This document shows, one piece after another, positions 24,089-59,822 of a stretch of 64,000 bases of DNA. The notes beneath the pieces are model-generated. The model made no database searches, was not told the DNA's origin, and saw nothing but the letters and a program-made list of their open reading frames with translations. Origin of the DNA: Lentzea tibetensis (GTDB lineage Bacteria > Actinomycetota > Actinomycetes > Mycobacteriales > Pseudonocardiaceae); assembly GCF_007845675.1 (NCBI RefSeq), contig NZ_VOBR01000018.1, forward strand, positions 1 through 64,000, written 5' to 3'. The first letter of the stretch is position 1; every line of letters begins with the position of its first letter. Position numbers and translations under genes: made by a program.

Positions 24089-24924
24089 TCAGCTGGTGAT
24101 GTCCTTGCGAGCAAACCGCCGAGCAGCAAACACACAGAAGACCAAGCAGTACCCCAAGGACAACAGAGCCCCACTAGCCATGTTGGTCCAGTTGACATCG
24201 GTGGAGAACACGTCAATCCAGGAGAACGTGTAGTGCGTGGGCAAGAATTCCCGAACACCCCCAAGCGCGGTGATCGCATCGAGGATCTGCGACAACACCC
24301 CGGCCAACACAGCCCCACCCACAGCCCCAAGAGGAGCGTCAAGCACCACGGACAGCAACAACGCAAGCCCAGCAACCCAACTCAACTGAACCACGATGTA
24401 CCCGGAAGCAACGCACAACGCGACAACGGACTTCCCGAACGGCACAGCGTCCCCGGTAGGACTGGTCGCATCCCCAGCCCCGTACCAAATCACCCCGACC
24501 AAAAAGGCACACAAGGGAAACAACAACAGCCCGGCCAACGACAACCACCCGGCGACGAAGGCCTTCTGCCGCAACAACCGCAACCGAGGAACAGGTATGG
24601 CCAACAGGTACTTCAGGGAAGACCACGAGGCCTCGGAAGCAACCGCCTCACCGAAGAACACTGCCACCACAACGGGCAACAGATAGGCGCCGGCGACGTA
24701 GAACCCGAACACCACGAAGTTGGGCGCGGACACCATCGCCAGGTCGGCGAACGTGCCACCGCGCTTGGCGGTGTCCGGAGTCTCGCCGAACCCGAACGCC
24801 ACCACCAGCAGCAGAGGCAGGAGAGCGGTCAGCGCGAGCAGCATCTTGGTGCGACGGCGCCGGAGCTGGCGGCGCAGCTCCACCCCCAGCCGCAGCGTGC
24901 GGGAAGGCGCGTACCCGGCAGCGG

Positions 24925-24928
<4 letters not shown>
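24089..24928 (-). CDS. ABC-2-type permease
   Basis: A 279-aa membrane protein with six hydrophobic helices, the permease partner of the ATPase half of the upstream fusion protein. The start overlaps its stop by 4 nt. The last helix-rich part and the end FCVFAARRFARKDITS fit the ABC-2 (NatB/DrrB-like) family. Codon use is odd: the 3' half uses many T-ending codons and GGG/TTG, unlike the 5' part and the neighbouring genes, and this G+T bias of the coding strand runs on into the downstream repeat tract. The substrate is unknown. Confidence 0.82.
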
Positions 24929-27594
<2,666 letters not shown>

Positions 27595-38356: not shown

Positions 38357-38360
38357 TCGC

Positions 38361-39303: not shown

Positions 39304-39309
39304 TGGCTG

Positions 39310-42741: not shown

Positions 42742-44334
42742 TTAGGCGGGGACGATGGACATGGAGTGCTTGAACACGTTGCGCGGGTCGTAGCGCTTCT
42801 TGATGCGCTGCAGGCGCGGGTAGTTGTCGCGGTAGTAGAGGGTGTGCCACGGCACGCCCGAGGTGTTCCACGCCGGGTCGAGCAGGTCGCTGTCGGCGTA
42901 GTTGATGAACGCGCCACCGTTGGTCGCGTTCGGCACGGGCACGCCGCCGGTGGTGGCGTAGACGTCGCGGTAGAGGTTGCGCACCCACGTCATGTGGGTC
43001 TCGTCCTCCCACTCGCCGGTCCAGCCGCCCGCGGTGAAGTACACGCGCAGGATCGAGTCGCGGTGCACGGCCGCGGTCGCGTCGGACGCGACGCTGTTGA
43101 TCTGGCCGCCGAACCCGGTCATGTTCACCAGCGCGTTGGCGTTGGAGTAGCCGGGATCGTTGAGGTAGCGGTAGATCGTGGAGATCTGCGCGTCGCTGTA
43201 GCCCTTGCGCAGGTCCGCGGTCTTGTTCTTCTGACGGCCCGCCGGGTCGCTGACCCAGTTGCGCGGGTCGAGCCACGAGGTGACCTCGCCGAAGTCCGCG
43301 ATGGGCGTGGCGCCGACGTCCGCCATGATCGAGTTGAAGTGCGCGTCCAGCATGGCCTGGCCGCCGGACACGGTGTCCTCGACGCCGGCCAGCACGCCGA
43401 TCGTGCCCGCGGCGGCGTGGTTCGCGAAGAGGGTGCCCCAGAGCTTGGTGTTCGGGTTGCCCGGCGCGCTGTTCGCCTCGAACCAGTTGCTGTAGTTGCG
43501 GATCAGCTTGATGAACGACTGCTCCGACATGCCCTGCCACGAGTACATGACCATGCGGGCGCGCTGGTTGCCCGTGCTGGGCAACAGCTTGCGCGGATCG
43601 GTCGACGTGGCACCGGGCGAGCGGAACCAGTACTTCGTGACGATGCCGAAGTTGCCGCCGCCACCGCCGGTGTGCGCCCACCACAGGTCGCGGTTCGGGT
43701 CGGTCGCCTCGCGGGTCGCCACCACCAGCTTGGGGGTGCCTGCCGCGTCGACCGTCACGACCTCGATCGCGTACAGGTGGTCGACGGTGATGCCGTAGCG
43801 GCGCGAGTAGAAGCCGTAGCCGCCACCGGGGATGTGGCCGCCGACGCCGACGGCCGCGCAGCCGGTGCCGGGGATCATGACGCCCCAGCCCTTGAACAGG
43901 GTCTCGGCCATCCGGCCGATCGTGGCGCCCGGCTCGACGCAGAACGCGCGCTTGGCCTCGTCGTAGTACACCTCGTCCAGCTGCGAGAGGTCGATGAGCG
44001 CCTTGACGTCCGTCGTCGTGAAGTTCTCCATGCAGTGGCCGCCGGAGCGCGCGGCGATGCGCTTGCCCGCGGCGACGGCGTCGCCGACGGCGGAGACGAC
44101 GTGTGCTGGTGTGCCTACTACTTTGGAGTAGTCGGGGCTTCCTACGTACCTGGTGTTGTGCGCGCGTTGCACGCTCAGGTAGCGAGGATCACCGACGGGG
44201 ATGGTGACAGGCCCGAAGGGGGCGCACGTCCTGGCGGCCTCGGCGGCGGCCGTCGCGACCGACGTTCCCGCCACCAGGCTCGCTCCGCCGATCGCCGTAC
44301 CGGCCAGGAATCCTCGACGGGACAGTGCAGTCAT
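42742..44334 (-). CDS. Tat-exported berberine-bridge-type FAD oxidase, bicovalent flavin
   Basis: A 530-aa flavoprotein oxidase of the BBE/FAD_binding_4 family. A twin-arginine signal (LSRRGFLAG, residues about 4-33) means it works outside the membrane. The flavin should be doubly attached: His100 in RSGGHCMEN and Cys159 in GTGCAAVGVGGHIPGGGYG. The C-terminal BBE segment with YYRDNYPRLQRIKKRYDPRNVF is present. Exported members oxidise alcohols or amines at a late step, as in prodrug activation; McrA of mitomycin producers uses a similar fold for resistance. GAGGTGAG precedes the ATG. A hairpin separates it from the gene upstream. Confidence 0.88.
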   Translation of the reverse strand: MTALSRRGFLAGTAIGGASLVAGTSVATAAAEAARTCAPFGPVTIPVGDPRYLSVQRAHNTRYVGSPDYSKVVGTPAHVVSAVGDAVAAGKRIAARSGGHCMENFTTTDVKALIDLSQLDEVYYDEAKRAFCVEPGATIGRMAETLFKGWGVMIPGTGCAAVGVGGHIPGGGYGFYSRRYGITVDHLYAIEVVTVDAAGTPKLVVATREATDPNRDLWWAHTGGGGGNFGIVTKYWFRSPGATSTDPRKLLPSTGNQRARMVMYSWQGMSEQSFIKLIRNYSNWFEANSAPGNPNTKLWGTLFANHAAAGTIGVLAGVEDTVSGGQAMLDAHFNSIMADVGATPIADFGEVTSWLDPRNWVSDPAGRQKNKTADLRKGYSDAQISTIYRYLNDPGYSNANALVNMTGFGGQINSVASDATAAVHRDSILRVYFTAGGWTGEWEDETHMTWVRNLYRDVYATTGGVPVPNATNGGAFINYADSDLLDPAWNTSGVPWHTLYYRDNYPRLQRIKKRYDPRNVFKHSMSIVPA

Positions 44335-44419: not shown

Positions 44420-45118
44420 TCAGCGCTTGATGAACGGCTTTCCCATGGGGAAGGACTTGCCGCCGAGAGCGGCGTTCGTGGCGCTCATGAAGAGGTACAG
44501 ACCGAGGAACGGCATGATGAACAGCGCGGCGATGCCGGGGTGCAGGATGAACGGGTCGCCACCGGCACCGGGACGAGCGATGCTGACCGCCGAGAACAGC
44601 GTGATCAGCGAGAAGTCGACCAGCACGAACAGCAGCGTGATGGCCTTCGGCAGGCGCAGCGTCGCGAACGTCATCGCCAGCATCAGTACGAACCACACGA
44701 GCAGGAAGTTCGCGTTCGCGCCGCGCTGAGCGGGCTCCGGGAGCTTGCCGAACCAGTTGTCGAGCAGGCCGACGATCAGGACGGTGAAGCTCAGCCAGAA
44801 CGCGCCGAACAGGCCGAAGATCGCGGCCTGCACGCCGTCGTTGCGCTTGATGGCCCAGATGCTCGCGACGATCAGCAGCAAGCCGCTGGCCACGATCATG
44901 ATCGGCAGCCCGCCCGCGAGCGTGCTGGGGATCGTGGTCTGGTTGAAGCCGGTGAGGAACAGCGCGAGAGACAGCGCCCCGATGGCGAACGCGGGGTAAC
45001 CGAGCAGCGCCGGGTTCGCGCTGAGAGAGGTCGGGACCTCGGTCGGTGCGGTCTCGGTCTTCTCGACGGCCACCTTGTGCCCGTTCGAGGTCTGGGACGG
45101 AATTTCCGTAGTGGTCAT
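44420..45118 (-). CDS. SatP/YaaH-type acetate-succinate transporter (GPR1/FUN34/YaaH)
   Basis: A 232-aa membrane protein with six helices. The family signature NPALLGYPAFAIGALSLALFLTGF (usual form NPxPLGLxxFG) begins near residue 33. These proteins move acetate and other short monocarboxylates. The polar N-terminus of about 30 residues is longer than usual. GGAGAG precedes the ATG at 45118. It is divergent from pabAB, and its promoter shows a variant of the cluster motif, so it may import or export a small acid linked to the pathway. Confidence 0.82.
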   Translation of the reverse strand: MTTTEIPSQTSNGHKVAVEKTETAPTEVPTSLSANPALLGYPAFAIGALSLALFLTGFNQTTIPSTLAGGLPIMIVASGLLLIVASIWAIKRNDGVQAAIFGLFGAFWLSFTVLIVGLLDNWFGKLPEPAQRGANANFLLVWFVLMLAMTFATLRLPKAITLLFVLVDFSLITLFSAVSIARPGAGGDPFILHPGIAALFIMPFLGLYLFMSATNAALGGKSFPMGKPFIKR

Positions 45119-45309: not shown

Positions 45310-47370
45310 ATGCGCACGCTGCTCATCGACAACCACGATTCGTACACCTACAACCTGTTTCAGTTGATGGCCGAGGTGTACGGCACGCCTCCGGTGGTGG
45401 TGACCAACGACGACGAACGCTGGTCGTCGCTGGACGTGGACGGGTTCGACGCGATCGTCGTCTCGCCCGGTCCCGGCCACCCCGGACGCACCCGCGACCT
45501 CGGCGCTGTGCGCGCGGTGCTCCGGCACACCTCCGTCCCGTTGCTGGGCGTGTGCCTCGGTCACCAGGCGATCGCCCTGCTCGCCGGAGCCGATGTCGTC
45601 GGCGCTCCGCAGCCGAGGCACGGGCACCTGACTCGGGTGCGCCACAACGGATCCGGCTTGTTCGACGGGCTGCCACAGGACTTCACCGCCGTCCGCTACC
45701 ACTCGCTGTGCGTGCCACCCGAGAGCTTGCCCGCGACGCTCGAAGCGACGGCGTGGGCCGAGGACGGCGTGCTGATGGGGTTGCGGCACCGGGAACGTCC
45801 CATGTGGGGCGTGCAGTTCCACCCGGAGTCGATCGCGTCCGAGCACGGCGCCTGGTTGATCGAGAACTTCGGCAGGCTCGCCGCGAAGACGTTGGCGGAA
45901 CAGGGGAAGGCCTTGCGCGCCCCGGTCGCCGACGAACCGGTGCGTGAGGTGATCACGGTGCGCCCGGCGGGTGAACCGTGGCGCGTGCTGCACCGCGAGC
46001 TCGGCCGCGAGGTCGACACGGCGTCGGTGTTCGCGGACCTCTTCGGCGGGCTCGACCACGCTTTCTGGCTCGACAGCAGCCGCGTCGAGCCCGGCCTGTC
46101 GCGGTTCTCGTTCCTCGGCGCGCCCGAGGGCCCGCACGGCGAGGTGCTGACGTACACGATCGACGAGACCGAAGAGTCGATCTTCGACGCCCTGCGCGCG
46201 CGGCTGGCCGCGCCGGTCGAGGGTGCGCCGGACGTGCCGTTCGACCTGACCGCCGGCTACGTGGGCTACTTCGGCTACGAGCTGAAGGGCGAGCTGGGGT
46301 CGCCGAACCGGCACCGCGCGCTCACCCCGGACGCGGTGTGGATGTCGACGACCCGCATGGTCGTCGTGGACCACGAGGAACGCGTCACGCACCTGGTCGC
46401 GCTGACCCGCGGCGACGACGTCACCGCTGCGGAGTGGCTCGACGACACCGAACGCCGGATCGCCGAGCTGCCGCCGTTGCCGGAACCACGTGAGCCGCTC
46501 GAGTTCGGCTACGACCCCGGCCCCGGCCTGATGCTGGCGCGGCAGGACTACATCGACAAGGTCGAGGCGTGCCAGCGGCAGCTGCACGCAGGTGAGAGCT
46601 ACGAGATCTGCCTGACGACCAGGACGAGCCTCCCGCTGCTCGACACCGACCCGCTGAAGCTGTACCTGGTGCAGCGCAGGACGAACCCCGCGCCGTACGC
46701 GGCGTTCCTGCGGCTCGACGGAGTGTCGGTGATGTGCTCGTCGCCCGAGCGGTTCCTGCGCGTCGACCGCGACCGGACCGTGGAGTCCAAGCCCATCAAG
46801 GGAACCACCGCCCGATGCGACGACCTGCTCGAGGACGCGCGGCTGCGGGCCAGCCTCAGCGAGGACCCTAAGGTCCGCGCCGAGAACCTGATGATCGTCG
46901 ACCTGCTGCGCAACGACCTCGGCCGGGTGTGCGAGATCGGCTCGGTGCACGTGCCGAGGTACATGGCGGTGGAGAGCTACGCGACCGTGCACCAGCTCGT
47001 GTCGACGGTGCGGGGCAGCCTGCGCGACGACGTGGACACGATCGCCGCCGTGTGCGCGTGCTTCCCCGGCGGCTCGATGACCGGTGCGCCGAAGATGCGC
47101 ACGATGGAGATCATCGACCAGCTGGAGCAGACGGCGCGCGGCATCTTCTCCGGCTCCATCGGTTTCCTGTCCTGCAACGGAACCGCGGACCTGAACATCG
47201 TGATCCGCACGGCCGTCTCGGACGGGCACAGCCTCTCGATCGGTGCGGGCGGCGCGATCGTCCTCGACTCCGTTCCCGAGGACGAGTTCGAGGAAATGCT
47301 GCTGAAGGCACGGGCCCCGATGCGCGGGCTCGGCGCACCGCGATCCCATCTCTTGGAGGCGAAGCGATGA
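45310..47370 (+). CDS. pabAB: Fused aminodeoxychorismate synthase (PabA-PabB)
   Basis: A 686-aa fusion. Residues about 1-195 are a glutamine amidotransferase with Cys82 in GVCLGHQ and the His/Glu pair in FHPES. Residues about 225-686 are the chorismate-binding half. The diagnostic motif is PIKGT (495-499) with Lys497, as in PabB, where anthranilate synthases read PIAGT; this Lys forms the covalent chorismate adduct. The product is therefore 4-amino-4-deoxychorismate, the source of p-aminobenzoate or p-aminophenylalanine-type units. No lyase or mutase follows in the window. It is the first gene of a long rightward operon and overlaps the next start. Confidence 0.92.
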
Positions 47371-48843: not shown

Positions 48844-49278
48844 ATGGCCGCGACCGAGACCCGCACCAGCCCCACACTCGCGACGAAGCTGCAGCCCGGC
48901 GTGCTCGCCGGGTTCCGGATCGTCGTGTCGTTCCTCTTCATCCTGCACGGCACCATGGGCCTGTTCGGCGCCTTCGGCGGCGTCGACGGTCAGGGCGGCA
49001 CCGTGTCGTTCCCGACGTTCCCGGACTTCTGGGGCAGCGCTATCCCGTTCGGCACCGGCATCCTGATCCTGCTGGGCCTCTTCACCCGGCCCGCCGCGGT
49101 GCTCGCGTCCGGCTCGATGGCGTTCGCGTACTTCGTCGTGCACATCCCGATGGGCGGCCTGTGGCCGTTGCAGAACGGCGGCGAGCTCGCCGCGATGTTC
49201 AGCTGGATCTTCCTGCTCATCGCGGCCTTCGGCCCTGGTGCTCTCGCGCTGGACAACCTGCGTCGCAAGGCATCATGA
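48844..49278 (+). CDS. DoxX-family membrane protein
   Basis: A 144-aa membrane protein with four helices and the DoxX features FILHGTMGLFGAFGG, FGTGILILLGLFTRPAAVLASGSMAFAYF and a final amphipathic end. DoxX-like proteins are tied to membrane quinone and thiol redox, but their chemistry in secondary metabolism is not settled. AAAGGAACC lies ahead of the ATG. Its stop overlaps the first ABC exporter gene, so it is part of the same transcript. It may keep a quinone-like intermediate in the right redox state, which is speculation. Confidence 0.82.
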   Translation: MAATETRTSPTLATKLQPGVLAGFRIVVSFLFILHGTMGLFGAFGGVDGQGGTVSFPTFPDFWGSAIPFGTGILILLGLFTRPAAVLASGSMAFAYFVVHIPMGGLWPLQNGGELAAMFSWIFLLIAAFGPGALALDNLRRKAS

Positions 49279-50999
49279 CCGGCGGCGTAACCCACGGCGC
49301 CCTGCTGCGGACCTACCTGGGTCCGCAGCGGGCGAGCGTCGTGGTGATGGCGGTGCTGCTGCTCTGCTCGATCGCACTCGAGATCGCGGAGCCGCGCATC
49401 GCCGCCTTCTTCATCGAGTCCGTGCAGCTCGGCCGCGCGGAGAGCACGCTCGTCGGCATCTCGCTGGTGTTCCTCGCGGTCGCCGCGTTCCGCCAGCTCG
49501 CCAAGGTCATCGCGGCCTACGCGTCGGAACGCGTGTCGTGGACCGCGACCAACGCCGCGCGCGAGGACCTCGCCGCGCACGTGCTGAGCCTCGACCTCGG
49601 CTTCCACGAGTCGCGCTCGCCGGGTGAGCTGATCGAGCGCATCGACGGCGACGTCAACCAGGTCGCCGAGTTCTTCTCCAGTCTGATCGTGCACCTCATC
49701 GGCAACGCGGTGCTGGTGCTGGGGATTCTCGGCGCGTTGACGTTCGTCGACTGGCGCATCGGGCTGACGTTCGCCGCGATCACGCTGCTGGGGTACTTCT
49801 TCCTCGCCCAGGTCGCCGGGGTCGCGACCGTCAAGTGGGAGGCCGACCGCGAGCAGAGCGCCAAGTTCTTCGGCTACGTCAGCGAGTCCATGCGCGCGAC
49901 CGAGGACCTGAAGTCGTCCAACGCCACCGAGTACGCGTTGTCCCGGTTCCACAAGCACCTGCGCTCGTGGCTGCCGGTGAAGGTGCGGGCCGAGGGCTGG
50001 GGCAGTGCGATCTGGGTCGTGCTGTCGCTGGTGTTCACGGCCGGATCGGCGTTCGCGTTCGGCTACGGCGGGTTCTTCTACCAGAACGGCACCGTGTCGC
50101 TGTCCGGTGTCTTCCTGATCATCGCGTACGCCACGATGCTCAACACCCCGATGGAGGTGCTGCGCCACCAGGTGCAGGCGTTGCAACAGGCATCGGCCGC
50201 CATCCGGCGCATGGCTGAGCTGTTCGGGCACAAGCCGACGATCCTCGACGGGACCCGCACGCTGCAGAAGGGCGCGTTGTCCGTCCGGTTCGACCACGTC
50301 ACGTTCTCCTACCAGGACAAGAAGATCCTGGACGAGCTGACGTTCGAGGTCCCCGCGGGCACGTCGTTCGGTCTCGTCGGACGCACCGGCGCCGGCAAGT
50401 CGACCATCGCGCACCTGATGTTCCGCATGTACGACCCGGTCCAGGGCCGGGTCTTGCTCGGTGAGGTCGACACGCGGGATGCCACGCTGTCGTCGTTGCG
50501 CTCGCAGGTCGGGTTCGTGACGCAGGACGTGCAGGTGTTCGACGCGACCCTGCGTGAGAACCTGACGTTCTTCGACCGCAGCGTGGACGACTCGCTACTG
50601 CTGTCCGTTTTGGACACTCTGGAGCTGCGGCCGTGGCTCGACGGCCTGCCGGACGGGTTGTCGTCGCGGATCTCGCCCAGCTCGCTGTCCGCGGGCCAGG
50701 CGCAGCTGCTCGCGCTGGCGCGGGTGTTCCTCAAGGATCCCGGCCTGGTGATCCTGGACGAGCCGTCGAGCAAGCTGGACCTGGTCACCGAGGCCATGGT
50801 CGAGCGCGCGCTGGACCGCATGCTGGCCGGCCGGACGTCGATCATCATCGCGCACCGCCTCGACACGATCCTGCGCACCGACCACACGCTGGTGCTGAGC
50901 CAGGGCGCGGTCGTCGAGCACGGCGTGACCGCCGACCTGCTGGCCGATCCGGACTCCCACCTGTCCGAGCTCTACCGCGTTGGGCGGGTGCTGCAATGA
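49275..50999 (+). CDS. ABC exporter half-transporter A
   Basis: A 574-aa type IV ABC exporter subunit: six helices (about 20-300) then an ATPase with Walker A GRTGAGKST, Q-loop VTQDVQVF, signature LSAGQAQLLALARV, Walker B LVILDEPSSKLD (catalytic Glu present) and H-loop His in IIAHRLDT. It forms a heterodimer with the next gene product. The signature is slightly off consensus (LSAGQ). It should export the cluster product. Coupled to doxX upstream and to half-transporter B downstream. Confidence 0.93.
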   Translation: MTGGVTHGALLRTYLGPQRASVVVMAVLLLCSIALEIAEPRIAAFFIESVQLGRAESTLVGISLVFLAVAAFRQLAKVIAAYASERVSWTATNAAREDLAAHVLSLDLGFHESRSPGELIERIDGDVNQVAEFFSSLIVHLIGNAVLVLGILGALTFVDWRIGLTFAAITLLGYFFLAQVAGVATVKWEADREQSAKFFGYVSESMRATEDLKSSNATEYALSRFHKHLRSWLPVKVRAEGWGSAIWVVLSLVFTAGSAFAFGYGGFFYQNGTVSLSGVFLIIAYATMLNTPMEVLRHQVQALQQASAAIRRMAELFGHKPTILDGTRTLQKGALSVRFDHVTFSYQDKKILDELTFEVPAGTSFGLVGRTGAGKSTIAHLMFRMYDPVQGRVLLGEVDTRDATLSSLRSQVGFVTQDVQVFDATLRENLTFFDRSVDDSLLLSVLDTLELRPWLDGLPDGLSSRISPSSLSAGQAQLLALARVFLKDPGLVILDEPSSKLDLVTEAMVERALDRMLAGRTSIIIAHRLDTILRTDHTLVLSQGAVVEHGVTADLLADPDSHLSELYRVGRVLQ

Positions 51000-52750
51000 A
51001 GAACGACTCCGTACCGCCGACACTGACGTTCCTGTGGCGGCTGATCACCTACAGCCCGTGGCGCTACCTCGCGGCCGCGGGCGGCTGGGCGTTGTTCCAC
51101 CTGTGGCCGCTGCTGCCGGGTGTGCTGGGCAAGCTGCTGTTCGACGTGCTGGAAGGCCGGGCCGCGCCGGGCATCACGGTGTGGACGCTGGTCGCGATCG
51201 TCGTCGCCGCGGGTCTTGCGCGATGTGCGGCGATCATCGGCGCGACCGTCGCGTGGGCGGGCTGGTACCTCCGCGCCCGCGGCCTGGTGCAACGCAACCT
51301 GCTCGCGCGGGTGTTCAGACTGCCTGGCGCGCAGGCGATGCCGACGAACGTCGGCGAGAGCATCTCGACGGTGCGGGACGACAGCGACGCCATCGCGTTG
51401 ATGGGCGGCTGGGGCTTCGACATGATGTCCGGCCTCATCTTCGCGGGCGGCGGGATGATCATCCTGCTCAGCGTCGACGTGAAGATCACGCTGATCGTCA
51501 TGGTGCCGCTGGCGATCGTGCTGGGGCTGGCCCAGTTCGCACGGGCGCGGGCGTACCGGATCCGCGAGCAGAGCCGCGACGCGACGGCCAAGGTCACCGG
51601 CACCATCGGCGAGATCGTCGTCGCTGTGCGCGCGATCAAGGCCGCCAACAAGGAGAAGGAAGTCGTCGAACGGCTCCGCGCGGACAACCGGGTGCGCAAG
51701 ACCGCGATGATCCGCGACAAGGTGCAGAGCCTCGCGATCGACTCCGTCTTCAACAGCACCGCGTCGCTCGGCGCCGGCCTGACGTTGCTGGTCGCGGCAG
51801 GTCAGATGCGCGGCGGCGACTTCACCATCGGCGACTTCGTGCTGTTCTCCACGTACCTCATGCAGGTCGCGGACTACACCGCGTTCATGGGCTTCCTCGT
51901 GCGCACCTACCAGCAGTCCGGCGTGTCCTTCGTGCGCGCGGCCGCGCTGTTGCAGGGCGCGCCGCCGATGACCCTGGTCGACCACCACCCGCTGCACCTG
52001 CGTCACGACCCGCCGCCGCCCGCGCCGTACCCGGACGTCGAACCGTTGCGGGAGCTCGAGGTGCGCTCGCTGACCCACGTGTTCCCCGGCTCCGGCGGCA
52101 TTCGAGACGTGTCGATGACGCTGCGAAGAGGCACCGTCACGGTGGTGACCGGCGAGGTCGGGTCGGGCAAGACGACGTTGCTCCGCAGCGTGCTCGGTCT
52201 GTACGCGGCGCAGGACGGCGAGGTCCGGTGGAACGGGTCCCGCGTCGATCCGGGTGACTTCATGATCCCGCCGCGCGTCGCGTACACGCCGCAGAACCCG
52301 GCGCTGCTCTCCGGCTCCATCAGGGAGAACATTCTGCTCGGGCTGCCAGAGGACGGCCTGGAGCGCGCGGTGCAGATGGCCGTGCTCGGGCCGGACGTCG
52401 AGCGGCTCGACGACGGCCTGGACACCGAGATCGGGGTACGCGGCGTCCGGCTGTCCGGTGGGCAGGTGCAACGGACCGCCGCCGCACGGATGTTCGCGCG
52501 CAAGCCGTCGCTGCTCGTGATGGACGACCTGTCGAGCGCGCTGGACGTGACGACCGAGCAGGAGCTGTGGCGGCGCATCTTCGCCACGGACGCGACCTGT
52601 CTGGCGGTGTCGCACCGGCCCGCCGTGCTCGAACGCGCGGACCAGGTGCTGCTGCTCAAACAGGGCCGGGTGATCGCGGCCGGTCCGCTCGCCGAACTGC
52701 TGGAGACGTCCGCGGACATGCGGATGCACTACCGACTGCCGAGGGAGTGA
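50996..52750 (+). CDS. ABC exporter half-transporter B (degenerate Walker B)
   Basis: A 584-aa partner of half-transporter A with the same layout. Walker A is GEVGSGKTT and the signature VRLSGGQVQRTAAARMF is consensus. Walker B reads LLVMDDLSSALD, with Asp in place of the catalytic Glu. In heterodimeric exporters one site is commonly degenerate in this way, and here the change and the LSAGQ variant of subunit A are split between the two chains. The start overlaps the stop of subunit A (ATGA). A hydrophobic membrane domain spans about 20-300. Confidence 0.93.
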   Translation: MKNDSVPPTLTFLWRLITYSPWRYLAAAGGWALFHLWPLLPGVLGKLLFDVLEGRAAPGITVWTLVAIVVAAGLARCAAIIGATVAWAGWYLRARGLVQRNLLARVFRLPGAQAMPTNVGESISTVRDDSDAIALMGGWGFDMMSGLIFAGGGMIILLSVDVKITLIVMVPLAIVLGLAQFARARAYRIREQSRDATAKVTGTIGEIVVAVRAIKAANKEKEVVERLRADNRVRKTAMIRDKVQSLAIDSVFNSTASLGAGLTLLVAAGQMRGGDFTIGDFVLFSTYLMQVADYTAFMGFLVRTYQQSGVSFVRAAALLQGAPPMTLVDHHPLHLRHDPPPPAPYPDVEPLRELEVRSLTHVFPGSGGIRDVSMTLRRGTVTVVTGEVGSGKTTLLRSVLGLYAAQDGEVRWNGSRVDPGDFMIPPRVAYTPQNPALLSGSIRENILLGLPEDGLERAVQMAVLGPDVERLDDGLDTEIGVRGVRLSGGQVQRTAAARMFARKPSLLVMDDLSSALDVTTEQELWRRIFATDATCLAVSHRPAVLERADQVLLLKQGRVIAAGPLAELLETSADMRMHYRLPRE

Positions 52751-52752: not shown

Positions 52753-54141
52753 GTGTCCGCGAAAGTGATCATCGTCGGCGCCGGGCCGACGGGCCTGGCG
52801 CTCGCGGCCGAGCTGGCCGAGGCCGGGATCGACTGCCACGTCCTGGAGAAGCGCTCGCAGAAGGCGGAGTTGTCGCGCGCGTTCACGATGGAGCCGCGCA
52901 CGATGGAGCTGCTGGACATGCGCGGCCGCGTCGAAGGTGTGCTCGAGCACGGCAGGCCGTGCCAGCACCCGCCGGTCGGCGACGAGGACGGCTACCTCGA
53001 CTACGGGCTGCTCGACACGCGGTTCCCGTTCAGCCTGATCATCCCGCAGCACCGCACGGAGAGCGTGCTGCAGGAGGCCGCCGAGAAGGCGGGTGCCCAG
53101 ATACGCACCGGTGTCGCGGTCGTCGGGCTGCGGCAGGACGCGGAAGGCGTCGAGGTCGACCTCAGCGACGGCACGACCGAACGCGCGGAGTACGTCGTCG
53201 GGTGCGACGGCGTGAACAGCAAGGTGCGCGAGCTGATCGGCGTCGACTTCGACGGCTGGAACTACGAGGACTCCGTGATCATGGGGGACTGCAAGCTGCG
53301 CAACCCACCGGTCCCCAACGCCTACGCGCGGATCAGCAAGCGCGGCATGGCGGCGGTGTTCCCGTTCCAGGACGACACGTACCGCGTGATCGTGTTCGAC
53401 CACGAGAAGATGAAGCTGCCCGCGGACCTGCCGCTGCCGCTGGAGGACGTGCGGGAGAGCTGCACGGCCCTGCTGGGCATGGACATCGAGCCGTACGACC
53501 CGGTGTGGCTGTCGCGGTTCCGCAGCTCGCAGCGGCACGCCAAGAAGTACCGCGTGGGCAGGGTGCTGCTGGCCGGCGACGCGGCACACACGCACATCCC
53601 CTCTGGGGGACAAGGACTTCAGACGGGCATTCAGGACGCGTTCAACCTCGGGTGGAAGCTCAGAGCCGAGATCGAGGGCTGGGCGCCGGACGGGCTGCTG
53701 GACAGCTACGAGGCCGAGCGCTACCCGATCGCGGCGGAGACGTTGCGCAAGACCGACATCTCGTTCCGCTTCGAGACGTCCAACGGCGTCGCCGCGCGGG
53801 CGATCCGCTGGGTCGTGCAGCAGCTCGTGCGGTTCGACTGGTTCCAGCGCGCGAACCTCGAACACCTGTCCGGCCTGACGCTGCGGTATCCCGGCAAGGG
53901 CTGGGTGGGCAAGAGGGTCCCCGACCGGCCCGTGCGCGACGGATCCCGGCTGTACGAACACTTCCGTGCCGGCCTGCCCGTCCTCATCGGACCGGGCCAC
54001 CTGGAGCTGTCCGAACCGCTCGGCCGCGGCTGCCCGCCGTTCGTGCTGGTGCGTCCCGACGGCTACGTGGCCTGGGCCGGAACCGAGAGCGAGCTGAGAC
54101 TCCAGCCGCCAACACTACTTCTACACAGCCAGCGAGTGTGA
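52753..54141 (+). CDS. FAD-dependent aromatic hydroxylase, second of two
   Basis: A 462-aa group A flavoprotein monooxygenase. VIIVGAGPTGLALAAELAEAGIDCHVLEK binds FAD, VVGCDGVNSKVRELIG is the DG motif and LLAGDAAHTHIPSGGQGLQTGIQDAFNLGWKL the GD motif, as in polyketide aromatic hydroxylases such as PgaE and RdmE. The C-terminal thioredoxin-like part is short and ends in SQRV. The GTG at 52753 follows GAGGGAG. It probably acts on a phenolic ring after assembly; the substrate is unknown. It belongs to a different subgroup from the hydroxylase at 31.8 kb. Confidence 0.88.
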   Translation: MSAKVIIVGAGPTGLALAAELAEAGIDCHVLEKRSQKAELSRAFTMEPRTMELLDMRGRVEGVLEHGRPCQHPPVGDEDGYLDYGLLDTRFPFSLIIPQHRTESVLQEAAEKAGAQIRTGVAVVGLRQDAEGVEVDLSDGTTERAEYVVGCDGVNSKVRELIGVDFDGWNYEDSVIMGDCKLRNPPVPNAYARISKRGMAAVFPFQDDTYRVIVFDHEKMKLPADLPLPLEDVRESCTALLGMDIEPYDPVWLSRFRSSQRHAKKYRVGRVLLAGDAAHTHIPSGGQGLQTGIQDAFNLGWKLRAEIEGWAPDGLLDSYEAERYPIAAETLRKTDISFRFETSNGVAARAIRWVVQQLVRFDWFQRANLEHLSGLTLRYPGKGWVGKRVPDRPVRDGSRLYEHFRAGLPVLIGPGHLELSEPLGRGCPPFVLVRPDGYVAWAGTESELRLQPPTLLLHSQRV

Positions 54142-54153: not shown

Positions 54154-54888
54154 ATGCAGAGCTATTCCGCGGAGTCCTACGGCGAAGCCATTGCTGCGGT
54201 CTTCGACTTCATCAACGACAACCCCGCCGAGGTCGCCAGCATCGTCGGCTTCCTCAAGGGGTACGTGGGTGACGGTCCCGTGCTGGAGGCCGGCATCGGC
54301 ACCGGCCGCATCGCGATCCCGCTGGCCGCCGAAGGCGTCGAGCTGTACGGCGTCGACATCAGCAAGGAGATGGTCGACCAGCTGCTCGCCAAGCCCGGTG
54401 CGGAGAAGATCACCGTCGAGGTCGGCGACATGAACGACATCGACTTCGGCAAGCAGTTCTCGATGGTGTTCCTCGCGCAGGGCACGTTCGGTGCGCTGCT
54501 GACCGAGGAGGCGCAGCGCCGGTTCCTGCAGGGCGCGCGCAAGCAGCTCGCGGCCGGCGGGAAGCTCGTGATCGAGACCATGGAGGTCGACGACACCCGC
54601 TTCACCCACGACCAGTACTGCACGACCTCGCTGCTCGACGTCACGCACGTCGTGCTCAGCGCCGCCATCCGCGAGCCGGAGGCGCAGCTGCTGAGCATCC
54701 AGAACGTTCTGCTGACGCCGCACGGGATCCAGCTCTACCCGGTGAAGTTCCGGTACTACACGGCCACCGAGCTCGACGGCATGGCGGCCGAGGCCGGACT
54801 GCGGCTGCTCGAGCGGTACTCCGACTGGGACTCCGCCGAGTACAAGTCCGGCGACCTGCGGCACATCTCGGTATACGGCGCAATCTGA
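54154..54888 (+). CDS. SAM-dependent methyltransferase
   Basis: A 244-aa class I methyltransferase. Motif I reads VLEAGIGTGRIAIPLA with the acidic end of strand 2 in LYGVDISKEMVDQL, and motif II/III lies around MVFLAQGTFGAL. It resembles the small methyltransferase_25/11 groups. It is the only methyltransferase in the cluster, so at most this enzyme adds O-, N- or C-methyl groups from SAM. It lies 12 bp after the hydroxylase in the operon. Confidence 0.87.
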   Translation: MQSYSAESYGEAIAAVFDFINDNPAEVASIVGFLKGYVGDGPVLEAGIGTGRIAIPLAAEGVELYGVDISKEMVDQLLAKPGAEKITVEVGDMNDIDFGKQFSMVFLAQGTFGALLTEEAQRRFLQGARKQLAAGGKLVIETMEVDDTRFTHDQYCTTSLLDVTHVVLSAAIREPEAQLLSIQNVLLTPHGIQLYPVKFRYYTATELDGMAAEAGLRLLERYSDWDSAEYKSGDLRHISVYGAI

Positions 54889-54909: not shown

Positions 54910-55716
54910 ATGACCACGTTACGCAGATCGCTGCGCCGGACCGTCGCACTCGTGCTCGCCGCGGCCGCGGTCGCCGCCTGTGCACCGAGCCGCGCGAGCA
55001 CCAACGCCAAGGGCGAGATGACGGTGCTCGGTGACACGGAGGCGCTCGGACTGGGGATCGCCACGCCGTACGCGACCATCGACAAGCAGGGCAACCCGGT
55101 CGAGATCGGCGTGCGGCTCACCGAGAAGGCGCTCGACGGACTGCCGCAGGGCGACGCGCCGTCGATGTACGTGCTCAACTTCCCGGAAGAGGCGGCGAAG
55201 ACGCCCGTCAAGAACCTCATGCTGAACTGGTACCCGAAGGGCCGCAAGCCCGCGGAGCTCTTCGGCGAGCCGCAGCTGGCGTTCCACTTCTACACGATCG
55301 ACCACGGCGAGGCCATGGGCATCAACCCCAAGGCCGAGACCGCCAAGGCCAACAACCTGCTGGACCCCAAGTACGTCGCGAAGGACTTCATCGCCGAGCC
55401 CGGTGACCCGGTCGAGAAGACCGTGCCCGCCATGGGTCTGCACTGGCTGGACTCCACCCGCGAGTTCGGGCCGGGCAAGCCGGAGTTCTCCGAGGTCTTC
55501 GTGTACGGCTCGTGGGACAGCAAGATGATCTTCCTGGAGCCGCTGGCGACGCGGAAGTACCTGCTGACCAAGCCGAACCTCACGGCCGAGGTCAAGCAGC
55601 CCGCCGCGTTCCAGAAGGACGCCTACTACCCGACGAAGTACACCATCCGGTGGGACGGCGAGCTCCAGCAGTACGTGATCGCGCTGACCAACCTGACGAA
55701 GAGGCAGGGCTCGTAG
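54910..55716 (+). CDS. Secreted lipoprotein, TTHB210/DUF5602-like
   Basis: A 268-aa exported protein. LRRSLRRTVALVLAAAAVAACAP is a lipoprotein signal with lipobox VAAC (Cys24). The mature part has a FHFYTIDHGEAMGINP segment and a MGLHWLDSTREFGPG segment with several His residues, similar to what I recall for the TTHB210-like (DUF5602) domain. The role is unknown; an extracytoplasmic binding or redox function is possible. GGAAGGAAAA precedes the ATG. Its place inside the operon, directly before the E1/E2 genes, suggests a role in product handling. Confidence 0.65.
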   Translation: MTTLRRSLRRTVALVLAAAAVAACAPSRASTNAKGEMTVLGDTEALGLGIATPYATIDKQGNPVEIGVRLTEKALDGLPQGDAPSMYVLNFPEEAAKTPVKNLMLNWYPKGRKPAELFGEPQLAFHFYTIDHGEAMGINPKAETAKANNLLDPKYVAKDFIAEPGDPVEKTVPAMGLHWLDSTREFGPGKPEFSEVFVYGSWDSKMIFLEPLATRKYLLTKPNLTAEVKQPAAFQKDAYYPTKYTIRWDGELQQYVIALTNLTKRQGS

Positions 55717-55718: not shown

Positions 55719-56627
55719 ATGCCTTCGCCCGACGAGGATCTGGAGCTGCTGGTCGGCATCCGGCACTTCGAGCTGGCGCTGCTCCGGATGTTCGACGAAG
55801 GCAAGCTCAACGGCACCACGCACACCTGCCTCGGCCAGGAGTACGTCCCGGTCGCACTGGCCCCCTTGCTGGACGGGGACTTCGTGCTCAGCAACCACCG
55901 GGGTCACGGGCACTACCTCGCGCACACCCGTGACCCCGAGGGGCTCCTGGCGGAGATCATGGGCCGCGCCGGCGCCGTGTGCAACGGCGTCGGCGGCAGC
56001 CAGCACGTGCACACCGAGGGGTTCCTCTCCACCGGCGTGCAGGGGCAGAGCCTGCCGCTGGCGGTGGGGATCGGGTTGCACCACAAGAGAATCGGCTCCG
56101 GTCAGATCGCCGTCGCGTACGTCGGCGACGGCACGTGGGGCGAGGGAACCGTGTACGAGGCGCTGAACATGGCGTCGCTGTGGCAGGTTCCGGTGCTCGT
56201 CGTCGTGGAGCACAACGGGATCGCGCAGTCCACGCCGACCGCGCTGGAGATGGCCGGGAACATCGGCGATCGGGCGCGGGCGTTCGGAGTGGACTTCCTG
56301 TCTGTGTCCTCAAAGGACGTATCCGAGATCCGGTCGCTGGTCTCGCCGGTGATCGCTCGGGTTCGCGACGAGCACCGGCCCGCGGTCATCGAGTTCCGGA
56401 CGACTCGGGTCGGTCCGCACAGCAAGGGCGACGACACGCGGTCGGCTGACGAGATCGCTTCGGTGCGTGCTGCCGACTGGTACGCGGCTCTGGCCGACCG
56501 GCCGGGGTTCGCGGAGCTGGACGCGCGGGTGCGGGAGTCGGTGGACCGGATGGTCGCCGAGGTGGAGGCGCGGGCGTTGTCGTCGTGGGACGGCCTGGTT
56601 GAGGCGGGGGTGGCGGGATGGGCTTGA
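55719..56627 (+). CDS. E1-alpha-type thiamine-diphosphate subunit (NapB/QncN-like)
   Basis: A 302-aa thiamine-diphosphate subunit like the alpha chain of 2-oxoacid dehydrogenases. The cofactor motif runs from GDGTWGEG at residue 136 to EHNG at 164-167 (Asn166). The phosphorylation-loop region and the C-terminal arm of classical E1-alpha (about 350-400 aa) are shortened. With the E1-beta/lipoyl/E2 fusion two genes on and a carrier protein between, it reproduces the two-component transketolase of the naphthyridinomycin and quinocarcin pathways, which takes a C2 ketol from a ketose phosphate. Oxidative decarboxylation of a 2-oxoacid is the alternative. It overlaps the carrier-protein gene by 10 nt. 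Confidence 0.85.
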   Translation: MPSPDEDLELLVGIRHFELALLRMFDEGKLNGTTHTCLGQEYVPVALAPLLDGDFVLSNHRGHGHYLAHTRDPEGLLAEIMGRAGAVCNGVGGSQHVHTEGFLSTGVQGQSLPLAVGIGLHHKRIGSGQIAVAYVGDGTWGEGTVYEALNMASLWQVPVLVVVEHNGIAQSTPTALEMAGNIGDRARAFGVDFLSVSSKDVSEIRSLVSPVIARVRDEHRPAVIEFRTTRVGPHSKGDDTRSADEIASVRAADWYAALADRPGFAELDARVRESVDRMVAEVEARALSSWDGLVEAGVAGWA

Positions 56628-56845
56628 ACCACCTGGTCGCGGACATCCTGCGGGTGCCGGTGGAGTCGGTCGGTGACGAGACCGGCACCGCCACCACGTC
56701 CGCGTGGAGCAGCCTGCGGCACGTGGAGATCGTCGTCGGTGTCGAGAAGACCTACGGCGTGAAGCTGACGCCGCGCGAGGCGCGCTCGTGCCGTTCGGTG
56801 CGCGCGTTGCGGCAAGTGTTGTCAGGGAAGGGGATCACGGCATGA
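56618..56845 (+). CDS. Stand-alone acyl carrier protein with SSL in place of DSL
   Basis: A 75-aa phosphopantetheine carrier protein. The attachment site reads AWSSLRHVEIVVGVEKTYGVKL, so the Ser of the usual DSL motif is kept (Ser32) but the Asp before it is Ser31. It is clearly distinct from the fatty-acid ACP at 3.1 kb. It is set between the two thiamine enzyme genes and overlaps both (10 nt and ATGA), as expected for the protein that receives the C2 acyl group from the lipoyl arm. Recognition by a phosphopantetheinyl transferase despite the missing Asp needs testing. Confidence 0.8.
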   Translation: MGLNHLVADILRVPVESVGDETGTATTSAWSSLRHVEIVVGVEKTYGVKLTPREARSCRSVRALRQVLSGKGITA

Positions 56846-58821
56846 CCCCGGCGCCGCGTGTGGTCGAGAACCTGAACCGCGCACTGCACCGGCTCTTCGC
56901 CGAGCGCGCGGACCTGCACCTGCTGGGCGAGGACGTGCTCGACCCGTACGGCGGCGCGTTCAAGGTCACCAAGGGCCTGTCGTCCGGTTTCCCGGACCGC
57001 GTGCTGACGACACCGTTGAGCGAGGCGGGCATCGCCGGTGTCGCAGCCGGGCTCGCCGTGGCCGGTGACCAGGTCGTGCTGGAGGCCATGTTCGGCGACT
57101 TCGCCGCGTTGATGTTCGACCAGATCCTCAACATGGCCTCGAAGTCCGTGACGATGTACGGGCGGCCCAAAGCCATGCGCGTGCTGGTGCGCTGCCCGGT
57201 CGGCGGCAACCGCGGCTACGGCCCCACGCACAGCCAGAGCGTGCAGAAGCACTTCATGGGCATCCCCAACCTCGGGTTGTACGAGGCCACGCCGTTCCAC
57301 GACGCGTACCCGCTGATGGCGCACGCGCTGGACCACGGCCCGTCGATCCTGTTCGAGGACAAGGTCCTCTACACGCGCCGGCTGTTCCAGGACGGCGTGG
57401 TGTCGGACCACTTCCGCTACTCGCTCGTCGGTGGCGCCACGGGCTGGGCGCACGTCACCTCGGGCGCACCGGCCGATGTCGTGATCATCTGCCCAGGTGG
57501 TGTGGCACATCGGGCACTGGAAGCGGCGGAGGCGTTGCGCGAGCAGGGCGTCTCGGCGCACCTGCTGGTGCCCGCCCAGCTCTACCCGCTCGACGTCGAA
57601 CCCGTGCTGCCGCTGATCTCCGGACGCGTCGTCGTCGCCGAGGAGAGCACGGCGGGCGGCACGTGGGGCTCGGACGTCGCCGCGGTGCTGCACGAACGCT
57701 TGTGGGGCAAACTGTCCGCCCCCGTCCTGCGCCTCTCCTCGGCCGACTCGATCATCCCCAGTGCCCGCCACCTGGAAGAACGCGTCCTCCTCAACTCCCA
57801 CCACATCGTCACCGCGCTGGGACGCGACCACTGCGAAGCACCTCAGGCCGTGCCAGAGGTGACGGCAGGCGCGCCGGTGACCGCGCCCAAGCTGAACAAC
57901 AACGACACCACGTACCTGGTGCTGGGGTGGCTGGTCGAGGACGGTGCGAAGGTCGAGCCGGGGACGGCGATCCTCGAGCTGGAGACGTCGAAGGCGATCG
58001 AGGAGATCGAGGCGACGGAGGCCGGGTACCTGCGCATTCACGTCCAGCAGGGCGTGGAGGTCGAGGTCGGCGCGCTGCTGGCGGAGATCGTCGGTGCGAA
58101 GACCGCGGTCGCGAAACCAGAAGTCCCGAAGCAGCGCACGCACAGCCTGGACCGGGCGCAGCAGGGCACCGCGATGGTGGTCAGCAAGGCGCACCAGGAG
58201 GTCCCGGCCGCGTTCACCGCGATCGAGGTGCGGGTCGACGCGCTGCTGGAACGGTTGCGCCAGCTCAGCGACGAGACGGGCGCCGAGGTGGGCGTGCCGG
58301 AGGCCGTGGTGAAGGCGGTGGCGGGCGCGCACGCCGACTTCGGCACGTTGTTCGGCAGCCTGGTCGACGACACGACGGTCGCGCTGGTCGACACCCCGCA
58401 CGTCGCCGTGACGCTGGACGCCGGCAAGGGCCTCTACGCGCCGGTGATCCGCGACTGCACCGACCGGTCCATTGTGGACATCTCGGACGACATGATGGAC
58501 TTCCGGATGAAGGCGTGGCGCGGCGAGTTCGCCGCGGCCGAGCTGACCGGCGGTTCGATCACGGTGTCGCTGAACACCGACGACGACGTGCTGCTGGTGC
58601 AGCCCATCGTGATGTGGCCCCAGCTGTGCATGTTGTCGGTGGGCGGGCTCCGGAACCAGGTCGTTCTGGAAGACGACGGGCCCAGCAACACCACGGTCGT
58701 CACGCTCGGCCTGGCGTACGACCACCGCGTCGTGAACGGCGCCGAGGCCGTGGCGTTCCTCCGCGCGGTCGCGGACAGCCTGCGCAAGCCGGATCGGTTG
58801 GAGAAGCTGGTGAGCCTCTGA
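56842..58821 (+). CDS. E1-beta / lipoyl / E2 fusion acyltransferase (NapD/QncL-like)
   Basis: A 659-aa three-part protein. Residues about 1-325 are an E1-beta-type transketolase subunit (GEDV, TPLSEAGIAGVAAG). Residues about 345-418 are one lipoyl domain with Lys384 in ELETSKAIEEIEA. Residues about 440-659 are an E2 catalytic domain with His628 in DHRVVNG, where the usual DHRxxDG Asp is Asn632. No E3-binding segment lies between lipoyl and E2 domains, and no E3 gene is in the window, which favours a non-oxidative C2 transfer to the adjacent carrier protein. This matches the domain layout I recall for NapD and QncL, known to form glycolyl-S-ACP. The ATG overlaps the carrier-protein stop. Confidence 0.88.
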   Translation: MTPAPRVVENLNRALHRLFAERADLHLLGEDVLDPYGGAFKVTKGLSSGFPDRVLTTPLSEAGIAGVAAGLAVAGDQVVLEAMFGDFAALMFDQILNMASKSVTMYGRPKAMRVLVRCPVGGNRGYGPTHSQSVQKHFMGIPNLGLYEATPFHDAYPLMAHALDHGPSILFEDKVLYTRRLFQDGVVSDHFRYSLVGGATGWAHVTSGAPADVVIICPGGVAHRALEAAEALREQGVSAHLLVPAQLYPLDVEPVLPLISGRVVVAEESTAGGTWGSDVAAVLHERLWGKLSAPVLRLSSADSIIPSARHLEERVLLNSHHIVTALGRDHCEAPQAVPEVTAGAPVTAPKLNNNDTTYLVLGWLVEDGAKVEPGTAILELETSKAIEEIEATEAGYLRIHVQQGVEVEVGALLAEIVGAKTAVAKPEVPKQRTHSLDRAQQGTAMVVSKAHQEVPAAFTAIEVRVDALLERLRQLSDETGAEVGVPEAVVKAVAGAHADFGTLFGSLVDDTTVALVDTPHVAVTLDAGKGLYAPVIRDCTDRSIVDISDDMMDFRMKAWRGEFAAAELTGGSITVSLNTDDDVLLVQPIVMWPQLCMLSVGGLRNQVVLEDDGPSNTTVVTLGLAYDHRVVNGAEAVAFLRAVADSLRKPDRLEKLVSL

Positions 58822-59822
58822 TGGCGTTCGGACTGGTCGCGTTCGGCACGGCGCTCGGCGAGCAGGTCGCCGTCAAGGACGTCGTCGCCGACTACACGGA
58901 GGACGTCGAGCGGGTGCTCGGCTACGGCTACGACTACGTGCACCGCTCGGACCAGCACCTGACCGATCTCGCGGTCGAGGCGGGCGCGAAGGCGCTCGAG
59001 AGTGCAGCGGTCGATCCCAGAACCGTTGACCTGCTGGTATTCGCGATCACGGACATCGCGGACTACCTGTACTGGGACGCGGCCGCATCGGTCGCGCACC
59101 GGCTGGGCCTGCGCCGCGCGGAAGCCGTTCTCATCGACCAGGGCTGCGTCGGCGGCGTCACGGCGTTCGACGCGCTGGCTGGCCGCTTCGCCACGCACCC
59201 CACCTGCAAGACGGCACTGGTGATCGGCGCGAACCGCACCACCGAGCTGTACATGAACCGCTTCGACACGAACTCGCTGCTGTTCTCGGACGGCGCCGCC
59301 GCCGCGGTGGCAACGCGAGACGCGCTCACGTTGACCTGGCGTTCGTCACACGCCGAAACCGATGGCAGCTACGCGGATTTCTTCCGCATGGACGTCGGTG
59401 GCGGTGCCAGGCCGTTCCAGCAGGGTGACCCGCCTGCCGTGCGCGACGCGTGGGACATCATGAGCTACTTCGACTACGAAGTAGAGCGGTTCTCGGTTTT
59501 CGCCGCAGAGATCAACGATCGCACCGCGCGCGCCGTGCACCGGGTGTGCAAGCAGGCAGGCGTCTCCGAGGACGACCTCGGCTGGTTGGTGCTGCTCAAC
59601 GACAATCCGCGCGTGCTCACCGAGCAGGCCGACCTCATCGGTGTGCCGGTCGAGCGCACGAACCTGAGGTGGGCGACGCAGCACGGCCACTTCGGTGCTG
59701 CCGATCACTTGTTCGCATTGGCGGAGCTCAGCGCCTCGGGCGAGCTGAAACGAGGTGACCTGGTCGCTCTCGCCGCCAACGGGCGCGGAATGCACTGGGC
59801 CGCAACGTTGCTGACGGCGTGA
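58821..59822 (+). CDS. Divergent KAS III-like acyltransferase
   Basis: A 333-aa thiolase-fold protein of the KAS III group. The nucleophile Cys109 is kept in DQGCVGG. The His of the FabH motif VPHQAN is not found at the matching place, which reads LLNDNPRV, and the Asn of GNTSSAS is replaced within ATQHGHFGAADHL, which offers His residues instead. Such altered KAS III proteins (CerJ, ChlB3 types) transfer acyl groups to alcohols or amines rather than condensing with malonyl-ACP. Placed last in the C2-unit block and coupled to it (TGATG), it may move the acyl group from the carrier protein to the aromatic unit. Confidence 0.8.
   Translation: MAFGLVAFGTALGEQVAVKDVVADYTEDVERVLGYGYDYVHRSDQHLTDLAVEAGAKALESAAVDPRTVDLLVFAITDIADYLYWDAAASVAHRLGLRRAEAVLIDQGCVGGVTAFDALAGRFATHPTCKTALVIGANRTTELYMNRFDTNSLLFSDGAAAAVATRDALTLTWRSSHAETDGSYADFFRMDVGGGARPFQQGDPPAVRDAWDIMSYFDYEVERFSVFAAEINDRTARAVHRVCKQAGVSEDDLGWLVLLNDNPRVLTEQADLIGVPVERTNLRWATQHGHFGAADHLFALAELSASGELKRGDLVALAANGRGMHWAATLLTA

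Follow-up and report, generated by a model that had tools for sequence, protein, structure and literature searches.

Four overlapping genes of Lentzea tibetensis, encoding an E1-alpha subunit, an acyl carrier protein (ACP), an E1-beta/lipoyl/E2 fusion, and a protein with the fold of β-ketoacyl-ACP synthase III (KAS III), rather probably form the glycolyl supply of a tetrahydroisoquinoline antibiotic cluster of the dnacin/naphthyridinomycin type, in which the KAS III-fold protein would pass glycolyl from the ACP to the carrier of a DinL-type module of a nonribosomal peptide synthetase (NRPS). The genes lie at positions 55719 to 59822 of the first 64 kb of a 178-kb contig (NZ_VOBR01000018.1, here C20) in a genome of 9.36 Mb, and this 64,000-nucleotide stretch is referred to as the window. 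They make up one operon within a much larger cluster, the NRPS genes of which start at contig position 67891, beyond the window. A first-pass annotation of the window had the KAS III acting instead of an NRPS and saw in this a new use of the platform. Neither point survives, because NRPS genes orthologous to those of dnacin follow the KAS III gene on the same contig, at a distance of 8 to 31 kb and past the window edge, and because KAS III, platform, and NRPS together are the published dnacin arrangement, in which DinQ is likened to NapE (PMC7570522). The module and the type of cluster were already known, and the finding as first stated is ordinary. The role of NapE and DinQ is now directly testable, since the catalytic triad of the KAS III-fold protein and the decayed adenylation (A) domain of the receiving module predict one reaction.

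A two-carbon platform of the NapB/NapD family

Adjacent genes of the set overlap by 10, 4, and 1 bases, and the frames and residues named in the first-pass annotation were all recovered. The lipoyl lysine (Lys384), the E2 catalytic His (His628 of the motif DHRVVNG, which also includes Asn632), and the ACP serine are encoded within this one gene set. Ser32 of the ACP is the likely phosphopantetheine site, a serine being present at this position in 27 of 27 aligned carriers. Compared by sequence, the four proteins come closest, among published clusters, to DinU, DinT, DinS, and DinQ, the proteins for dnacin B1; DinU and DinS are in turn 68% and 59% identical to NapB and NapD (PMC7570522). The proposed membership in the NapB/NapD (QncN/QncL) family is upheld by these identities. 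A closer match to acetoin or branched-chain dehydrogenases was not found: in pairwise identities, rather than a tree, E1-alpha and the fusion stand at 67% and 60% to DinU and DinS, against 24 to 34% for the three own-genome paralogue matches of E1-alpha, the best-scoring of which reaches 34% over 121 residues.

An ordinary pyruvate, branched-chain, or acetoin dehydrogenase would be built from the same domain families. That reading is hardly credible and was rejected, as the NCBIfam cut-offs for pyruvate dehydrogenase, 2-oxoglutarate dehydrogenase, and acetoin dehydrogenase were all missed widely (E1-alpha scores 173.9 bits against the pyruvate dehydrogenase E1-alpha equivalog, where the cut-off is 393.85), the fusion has no Pfam match for an E3-binding domain, and Asn replaces Asp in its E2 motif. 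The three other E2 proteins of the genome read DHRVVDG, DHRLVDG, and DHRIIQG, and the genome's two E3-binding domains sit in the first two of these. An alignment scan for E1-beta, with one genome per species, gave at least 593 stretches, of which 588 were confirmed and the best 80 kept; DHRxxNG is present in 75 of these 80 related loci, with Thr in one (L099). The motif was not seen in L053, L060, L073, and L124, although L060 is a 6.4-kb contig and the L053 match lies at a contig end. The E1-beta alignment (A1) comprises 15 of 20 loci, the window included, leaving out L018 and L022 (stops inside the match) and L011, L019, and L024; the L007 gene contains L025 as its E2 half.

The absence from the operon of an E3-binding domain and of an E3 gene, also noted earlier, was confirmed, and seven lipoamide dehydrogenase matches lie elsewhere in the genome, two of them above the family cut-off. 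When a ketose gives rise to a glycolyl group on lipoyl, the reaction is already an oxidation and consumes the lipoyl disulfide. The lack of a linked E3 is thus no mark of a non-oxidative route, and the suggestion that it favors one was rejected as non-discriminating, given the E3 genes elsewhere and the like absence of an E3-binding match in dnacin DinS. The domain was likewise not matched in the fusions of L052, L055, and L047.

A KAS III fold with an acyltransferase triad

Cys109 of the KAS III-fold protein is kept, Leu259 occupies the FabH His position, and His290 occupies the FabH Asn position. The protein therefore lacks the FabH-type Cys-His-Asn triad and instead has a Cys109-His290-Asp295 triad, the Asp lying five residues after the His, and has lost the first condensing His. 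Both the Cys-His-Asp triad and the loss of the first His recur in 26 of 26 homologues, about 25 of them distinct since one contig seems to be represented twice, as G394 and L062. Alignment A2 and the structure modeling drew on 20 of the 27 sequences (the window protein plus 26), leaving out seven from stretches with G handles.

The loss of the first His is the change that distinguishes acyl transfer from condensation, and by this signature the protein is probably an acyltransferase rather than a condensing enzyme. CerJ and ChlB3 share the triad and the lost His with it and are among its best fold matches, in a tie with DpsC and NatS, although they are only about 21 to 23% identical to it. CerJ transfers malonyl to a sugar hydroxyl, forming an ester with its Cys-His-Asp triad, and ChlB3 moves 6-methylsalicyl between two carriers. 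A search for the KAS III across the phylum at 1e-50, with at most five candidates scored per genome, returned the window genome only (1 of 396 sampled genomes).

Of the earlier suggestion that a KAS III-like enzyme passes the acyl group on, the transfer holds in spirit, in that the altered His and Asn sites point to acyl transfer and not condensation, and the non-NRPS acceptor falls. That the platform feeds such an acceptor through a condensing KAS III is very improbable. Four Streptomyces loci do carry the platform with a different KAS III in which Cys-His-Asn is intact, but nothing in the window speaks for it, the condensing His is lost here, and dnacin-type NRPS genes are on the same contig. 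With these genes found on the rest of C20, a non-NRPS use was rejected for the window cluster.

The putative receiving NRPS module

In the DinL-type protein encoded downstream of the window, a condensation domain (288.4 bits) and a carrier (48.3 bits) were matched, and the A domain is a 40-residue remnant of 20.1 bits, below the Pfam cut-off of 29.9. Dnacin DinL has a comparable A-domain score (20.4 bits), and the dnacin authors call this domain inactive (PMC7570522). Thirteen genomes were searched for such modules, 12 of them with the KAS III and the other being that of L053, where the contig ends too early. Eleven of the 12 modules come from genomes with the KAS III; L161 comes from the L053 genome, whose contig ends before the place of the KAS III. 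In nine further modules the A domain gave no match (three modules) or 24.0, 31.4, 31.3, 53.2, 49.8, and 101.4 bits, and a tenth (L166) gave 109.5 bits. None of the 12 modules shows the A3 or A10 motif pattern and 11 lack A7, while 11 of the 12 keep the carrier-serine pattern. L166, the sequence of which ends at the locus end, is the exception for both A7 and the carrier serine.

As controls, the A domain of DinJ scored 275.4 bits, that of DinN 206 bits, and those of DinO 752.1 bits summed over three domains, and A3 and A7 are both present in DinH, both DinJ, and the three window DinO domains. These patterns are indicative only, as A10 missed both DinJ, A3 missed one dnacin DinO domain, and DinN shows none. 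On these motifs and scores, the DinL-type module is one with a decayed A domain and an intact carrier serine, and a live carrier beside a decayed A domain needs loading from outside.

It is possible to read the KAS III as an ester-forming enzyme instead, which would attach the peptide chain to the hydroxyl of the glycolyl unit, much as CerJ uses an identical triad to acylate a sugar hydroxyl; some Micromonospora relatives also stand beside an FkbH-like gene. However, the DinL-type module keeps its condensation domain, with the HHxxxD pattern recognizable in 9 of 12 modules, and this domain is the joiner assigned in the dnacin work (PMC7570522), which makes ester formation improbable.

Proposed pathway and its weighing

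Starting from what was observed, namely gene order, orthology, the triad, and the decayed A domain, we infer every reaction of the pathway. The E1-alpha/E1-beta pair would transfer a two-carbon (C2) ketol unit of a ketose phosphate to thiamine diphosphate (ThDP), the lipoyl arm at Lys384 would oxidize this unit and take it as a glycolyl thioester, and the E2 domain would transfer glycolyl to Ser32 of the ACP. These three steps are proposed from homology to NapB and NapD. In our own proposal for the fourth step, the KAS III would carry glycolyl from the ACP to the DinL-type carrier through Cys109-His290-Asp295, without condensation. Such a carrier-to-carrier shuttle is suggested by an acyltransferase triad on a KAS III fold and by ChlB3, which works between two carriers. 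The condensation domain would then join the peptide chain to glycolyl, and a reductase domain of the DinJ type would release the aldehyde for ring closure, as in the published dnacin proposal (PMC7570522).

Alternatively, the KAS III may load the ACP with glycolyl from lipoyl or another donor, after which the ACP would serve the condensation domain directly. This is the published proposal for DinQ, with "glyceryl" as the paper's word (PMC7570522), and it agrees with gene position: NapE-type KAS III genes, counted at 40% or more identity over 300 residues within the fetched flanks, occur in 19 of the 80 loci, and in 15 of these they adjoin the gene for the fusion or the ACP. The fusion, however, already holds an E2 acyltransferase domain seemingly able to load the ACP, and platform sets without a NapE-type KAS III are common (61 of 80 loci, counted within fetched flanks that a contig end truncates in some cases). 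NapB and NapD alone are also reported, in a 2012 PNAS abstract, to form glycolyl-ACP. We therefore hold ACP loading by the KAS III to be unlikely.

Several observations weigh against the KAS III as a shuttle from the ACP to the DinL-type carrier. The dnacin authors assign DinQ to the loading of DinT, the ACP (PMC7570522). A-domain decay is graded, 6 of 12 modules lying above the Pfam cut-off and reaching 101.4 (L165) and 109.5 bits (L166), and L166 retains motif A7. No DinL-type module was found at E 1e-90 in 3 of the 13 genomes (L056 to L058), all with the KAS III, and the modules surveyed come from outside the Micromonospora-type and KAS III-free clusters and so do not tie A-domain decay to the presence of the KAS III. 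The KAS III is not beside the platform genes in 4 of 19 loci, lying some kilobases off and beside an FkbH-like gene in L060, L062, and L068 and on the other strand in L089. The structure model has ChlB3, DpsC, NatS, and CerJ as tied best matches, and DpsC condenses, so the fold does not separate the two activities; DpsC also has Gly-His-Leu-Gly-x-x-Asp at the second site in a profile alignment, so His and Asp alone do not discriminate either.

Occurrence in other genomes

NRPS similarity of at least 250 residues is found in the same locus for 14 of the 19 loci with a NapE-type KAS III. The five others are L047, L054, L060, L062, and L068; the last part of L054 is a short DinO-type fragment, and the L047 genome has a DinL-type module elsewhere. 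Seven of ten loci viewed gene by gene are without a NapE-type KAS III. An NRPS-like gene directly follows the E2 gene in L066, L087, L099, and L103, NRPS genes lie upstream in L061 and L063, and the seventh locus, L072, has a KAS III of the condensing type.

In four Streptomyces loci (L069, L072, L078, and L081) the C2 platform adjoins another kind of KAS III, in which the Cys-His-Asn residues are intact (seen in L072, the others being 95 to 98% identical), together with two ACPs, a FabF-like synthase, and a thioester-reductase-type gene. Going by these genes, the loci are candidate cases in which the platform supplies a condensing enzyme and not an NRPS. In Micromonospora (L060, L062, L068, G279, and G394) the platform and a NapE-type KAS III occur with an FkbH-like gene, of a family that makes glyceryl-ACP; the G279 protein scores 74.6 bits for FkbH, below the cut-off of 146.65. 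This gene content suggests that glyceryl and glycolyl units may meet within one pathway. Cyanobacterial loci (L075, L079, and L083) have platform relatives of 50 to 51% identity, with a weak DinT-like ACP match (26 to 31%) and a FabF-like match nearby.

The surrounding cluster

The dnacin reference was stretch C1:4270001-4350000 of genome G150, from the same family, where gene order and mostly exact protein lengths match the dnacin B1 cluster (PMC7570522, Table 1); lengths differ for DinE, O, R4, X, and R9. Gene starts came from a home-made caller, by which DinV was split and an opposite-strand reading frame was called over the KAS III in G091, G181, G367, and G163, where the KAS III was recovered by tblastn.

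Table 1. Genes of the C2 operon and of the cluster around it (window positions unless marked as contig; percentages are identities to dnacin proteins)
Position	Strand	Feature	Details
24089..27564	-	transporter pair, DinR4/DinR5 orthologues, left part of shared cluster	55-56%
42742..44274	-	flavin adenine dinucleotide (FAD)-linked oxidase, DinA/NapU orthologue	60%
44420..45118	-	DinP orthologue	39%
45310..47370	+	4-amino-4-deoxychorismate synthase, DinV orthologue (p-aminophenylalanine supply)	69% over 331 residues
47367..48815	+	HpaB-type hydroxylase, DinW orthologue	73%; HpaB match
49275..50999	+	ATP-binding cassette (ABC) transporter, DinR6 orthologue	69%
50996..52750	+	ABC transporter, DinR7 orthologue	78%
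52753..54141	+	FAD monooxygenase, DinX/NapA orthologue	69% to DinX
54154..54888	+	methyltransferase, DinY orthologue	66%
54910..55716	+	possibly secreted small protein, directly upstream of E1-alpha	TTHB210-like, 59.3 bits
55719..56627	+	E1-alpha, orthologue of DinU/NapB, ThDP-binding half of two-component transketolase	302 aa; Pfam E1_dh 149.5 bits; DinU 67%
56618..56845	+	stand-alone ACP, orthologue of DinT/NapC	75 aa; PP-binding 23.8 bits; DinT 60%
56842..58821	+	E1-beta/lipoyl/E2 fusion, orthologue of DinS/NapD	659 aa; Transket_pyr, Transketolase_C, Biotin_lipoyl, 2-oxoacid_dh; DinS 60%
58821..59822	+	KAS III-fold protein, orthologue of DinQ/NapE	333 aa; DinQ 69%
contig 67891-76650		DinO orthologue	NRPS; 57%
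contig 79480-82344		DinL orthologue	NRPS; 53%
contig 82593-86948		DinJ orthologue	NRPS; 73%

Beyond the window and up to contig position 104646 lie orthologues of DinO, DinN (62%), DinM, DinL, DinK, DinJ, DinI, DinH, DinG, DinF, DinR3, and DinE. Of the dnacin-type genes, the NRPS set, the p-aminophenylalanine genes (DinV, E, and F), and DinI are thus all present. Aminodeoxychorismate synthase models match the DinV orthologue, with 345.9 bits for pabB against a cut-off of 328.4. The small protein directly upstream of E1-alpha has counterparts in two Microbispora clusters (49 to 51% identity) and no match among the called genes of the dnacin region. These clusters, in M. triticiradicis and M. 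amethystogenes (L052 and L054), keep the genes from the aminodeoxychorismate synthase, cut by the contig start, through the KAS III at 51 to 79% identity; the DoxX gene is not present among the kept neighbors, and a DinO-type NRPS gene follows on the opposite strand, with 133 and 126 bp between its end and the KAS III. In L. tibetensis a spacer of about 8 kb separates the KAS III from the NRPS genes (window 59931 to 64000, on to C20:67449) and holds an Hsp70-family gene (237.2 bits) and two genes without a Pfam match; such a spacer was not seen in Microbispora.

Two further gene groups set the cluster apart. Between DinF and DinR3, contig C20:92392-101284 (L027:8392-17284) encodes a ThDP enzyme, a DegT aminotransferase, a split transketolase, a LysW-like carrier, a LysX-type ligase, a semialdehyde dehydrogenase, an amino-acid kinase, and an M20 peptidase. 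The Pfam matches on C20:95428-101284 agree with the gene make-up of the LysW amino-group-carrier pathway, and judged by its genes the cassette has the make-up of an amino-group-carrier-protein pathway with its own split transketolase; it is also kept in the two Microbispora clusters. In azinomycin biosynthesis a transketolase makes a C2 extension of a similar sort, and vazabitide uses an amino-group carrier protein (excerpts of PMC9570651). A literature search for a tetrahydroisoquinoline with an amino-group carrier protein found nothing joining both, and in the excerpts at hand one review names the carrier for azinomycin and vazabitide only.

The second group lies between DinR4/R5 and DinA and comprises tryptophan/kynurenine genes, UvrA, MeaB, an N-acetyltransferase, a short-chain dehydrogenase/reductase (SDR), and a mutase with a B12-binding partner. 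Window 28718 to 34586 encodes two tryptophan 2,3-dioxygenase-like proteins, a kynureninase-like protein, a FAD monooxygenase, a Rieske protein, and a cyclase, a group kept in both Microbispora clusters. Actinosynnema sp. ALI-1.44 carries five of these six genes about 14 kb from tetrahydroisoquinoline-type NRPS genes, and S. griseus BIG105 carries four of them. Window 36846 to 41276 holds a split B12-dependent mutase of the methylmalonyl-CoA mutase family, MeaB, an arylamine N-acetyltransferase-type gene, and an SDR gene; the mutase, acetyltransferase, and SDR are kept in the M. triticiradicis cluster, and MeaB was not seen there. The UvrA-like protein (window 34421 to 36859) is 38% identical to the dnacin resistance protein UvrA (DinR8) and by that identity perhaps has a separate origin.

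Both Microbispora genomes have LysX, at 76 and 77% identity, and the dioxygenase-like protein, at 72 and 73%, on their NRPS-bearing contig; among 14 genomes searched at E 1e-20, LysX matched in three and the dioxygenase-like protein in four. Going by gene content, the extra cassettes suggest a product different from dnacin. A fuller proposal joins a dedicated carrier-to-carrier KAS III shuttle for a decayed-A module, with a sugar C2 unit replacing an amino acid, to a second ketose C2 unit from the amino-group-carrier transketolase cassette, which would together give an undescribed tetrahydroisoquinoline that contains one more unusual amino acid and a part derived from tryptophan; this combination we put forward tentatively, as doubtful in its entirety.

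Comparison with known systems

Literature searches on the biochemistry of the platform gave, among the matches listed, only the scleric acid paper, the dnacin paper, and one review as relevant; for cluster papers under related antibiotic names, none besides dnacin was recognized as relevant among the matches listed. In quinocarcin (QncN/QncM/QncL) and scleric acid (SclQ1-4), the C2-glycolyl platform comes with an ACP, and a KAS III is not mentioned in the passages of PMC6335953 that describe them. Naphthyridinomycin has NapB-NapC-NapD-NapE as the named homologues of the dnacin set, KAS III included, as given in Table 1 of the dnacin paper (PMC7570522).

The dnacin B1 cluster of Actinosynnema pretiosum is closest, with DinU, DinT, DinS, and DinQ at 67, 60, 60, and 69% identity to the window proteins and DinA, P, R4, R5, V, W, R6, R7, X, Y, O, N, M, L, K, J, I, H, G, F, E, and R3 as common partner genes. 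The gene order is rearranged between the two, and the fusion is shorter in the window (659 against 754 aa, a difference mainly of linker). The L. tibetensis cluster also has a DoxX gene and the small upstream gene in addition to the dnacin set and, unlike dnacin, about 8 kb of other genes between the KAS III and the NRPS; the LysX and dioxygenase-like markers of its two extra cassettes have no match in the dnacin genome (G150) at E 1e-20. From gene content and identity, the window set looks like a copy of the napB-C-D-E type module in a cluster for quinone antibiotics of the dnacin/naphthyridinomycin type, and the cluster as a whole, a dnacin relative with two conserved extra cassettes, is a candidate source of a new antibiotic of the dnacin class.

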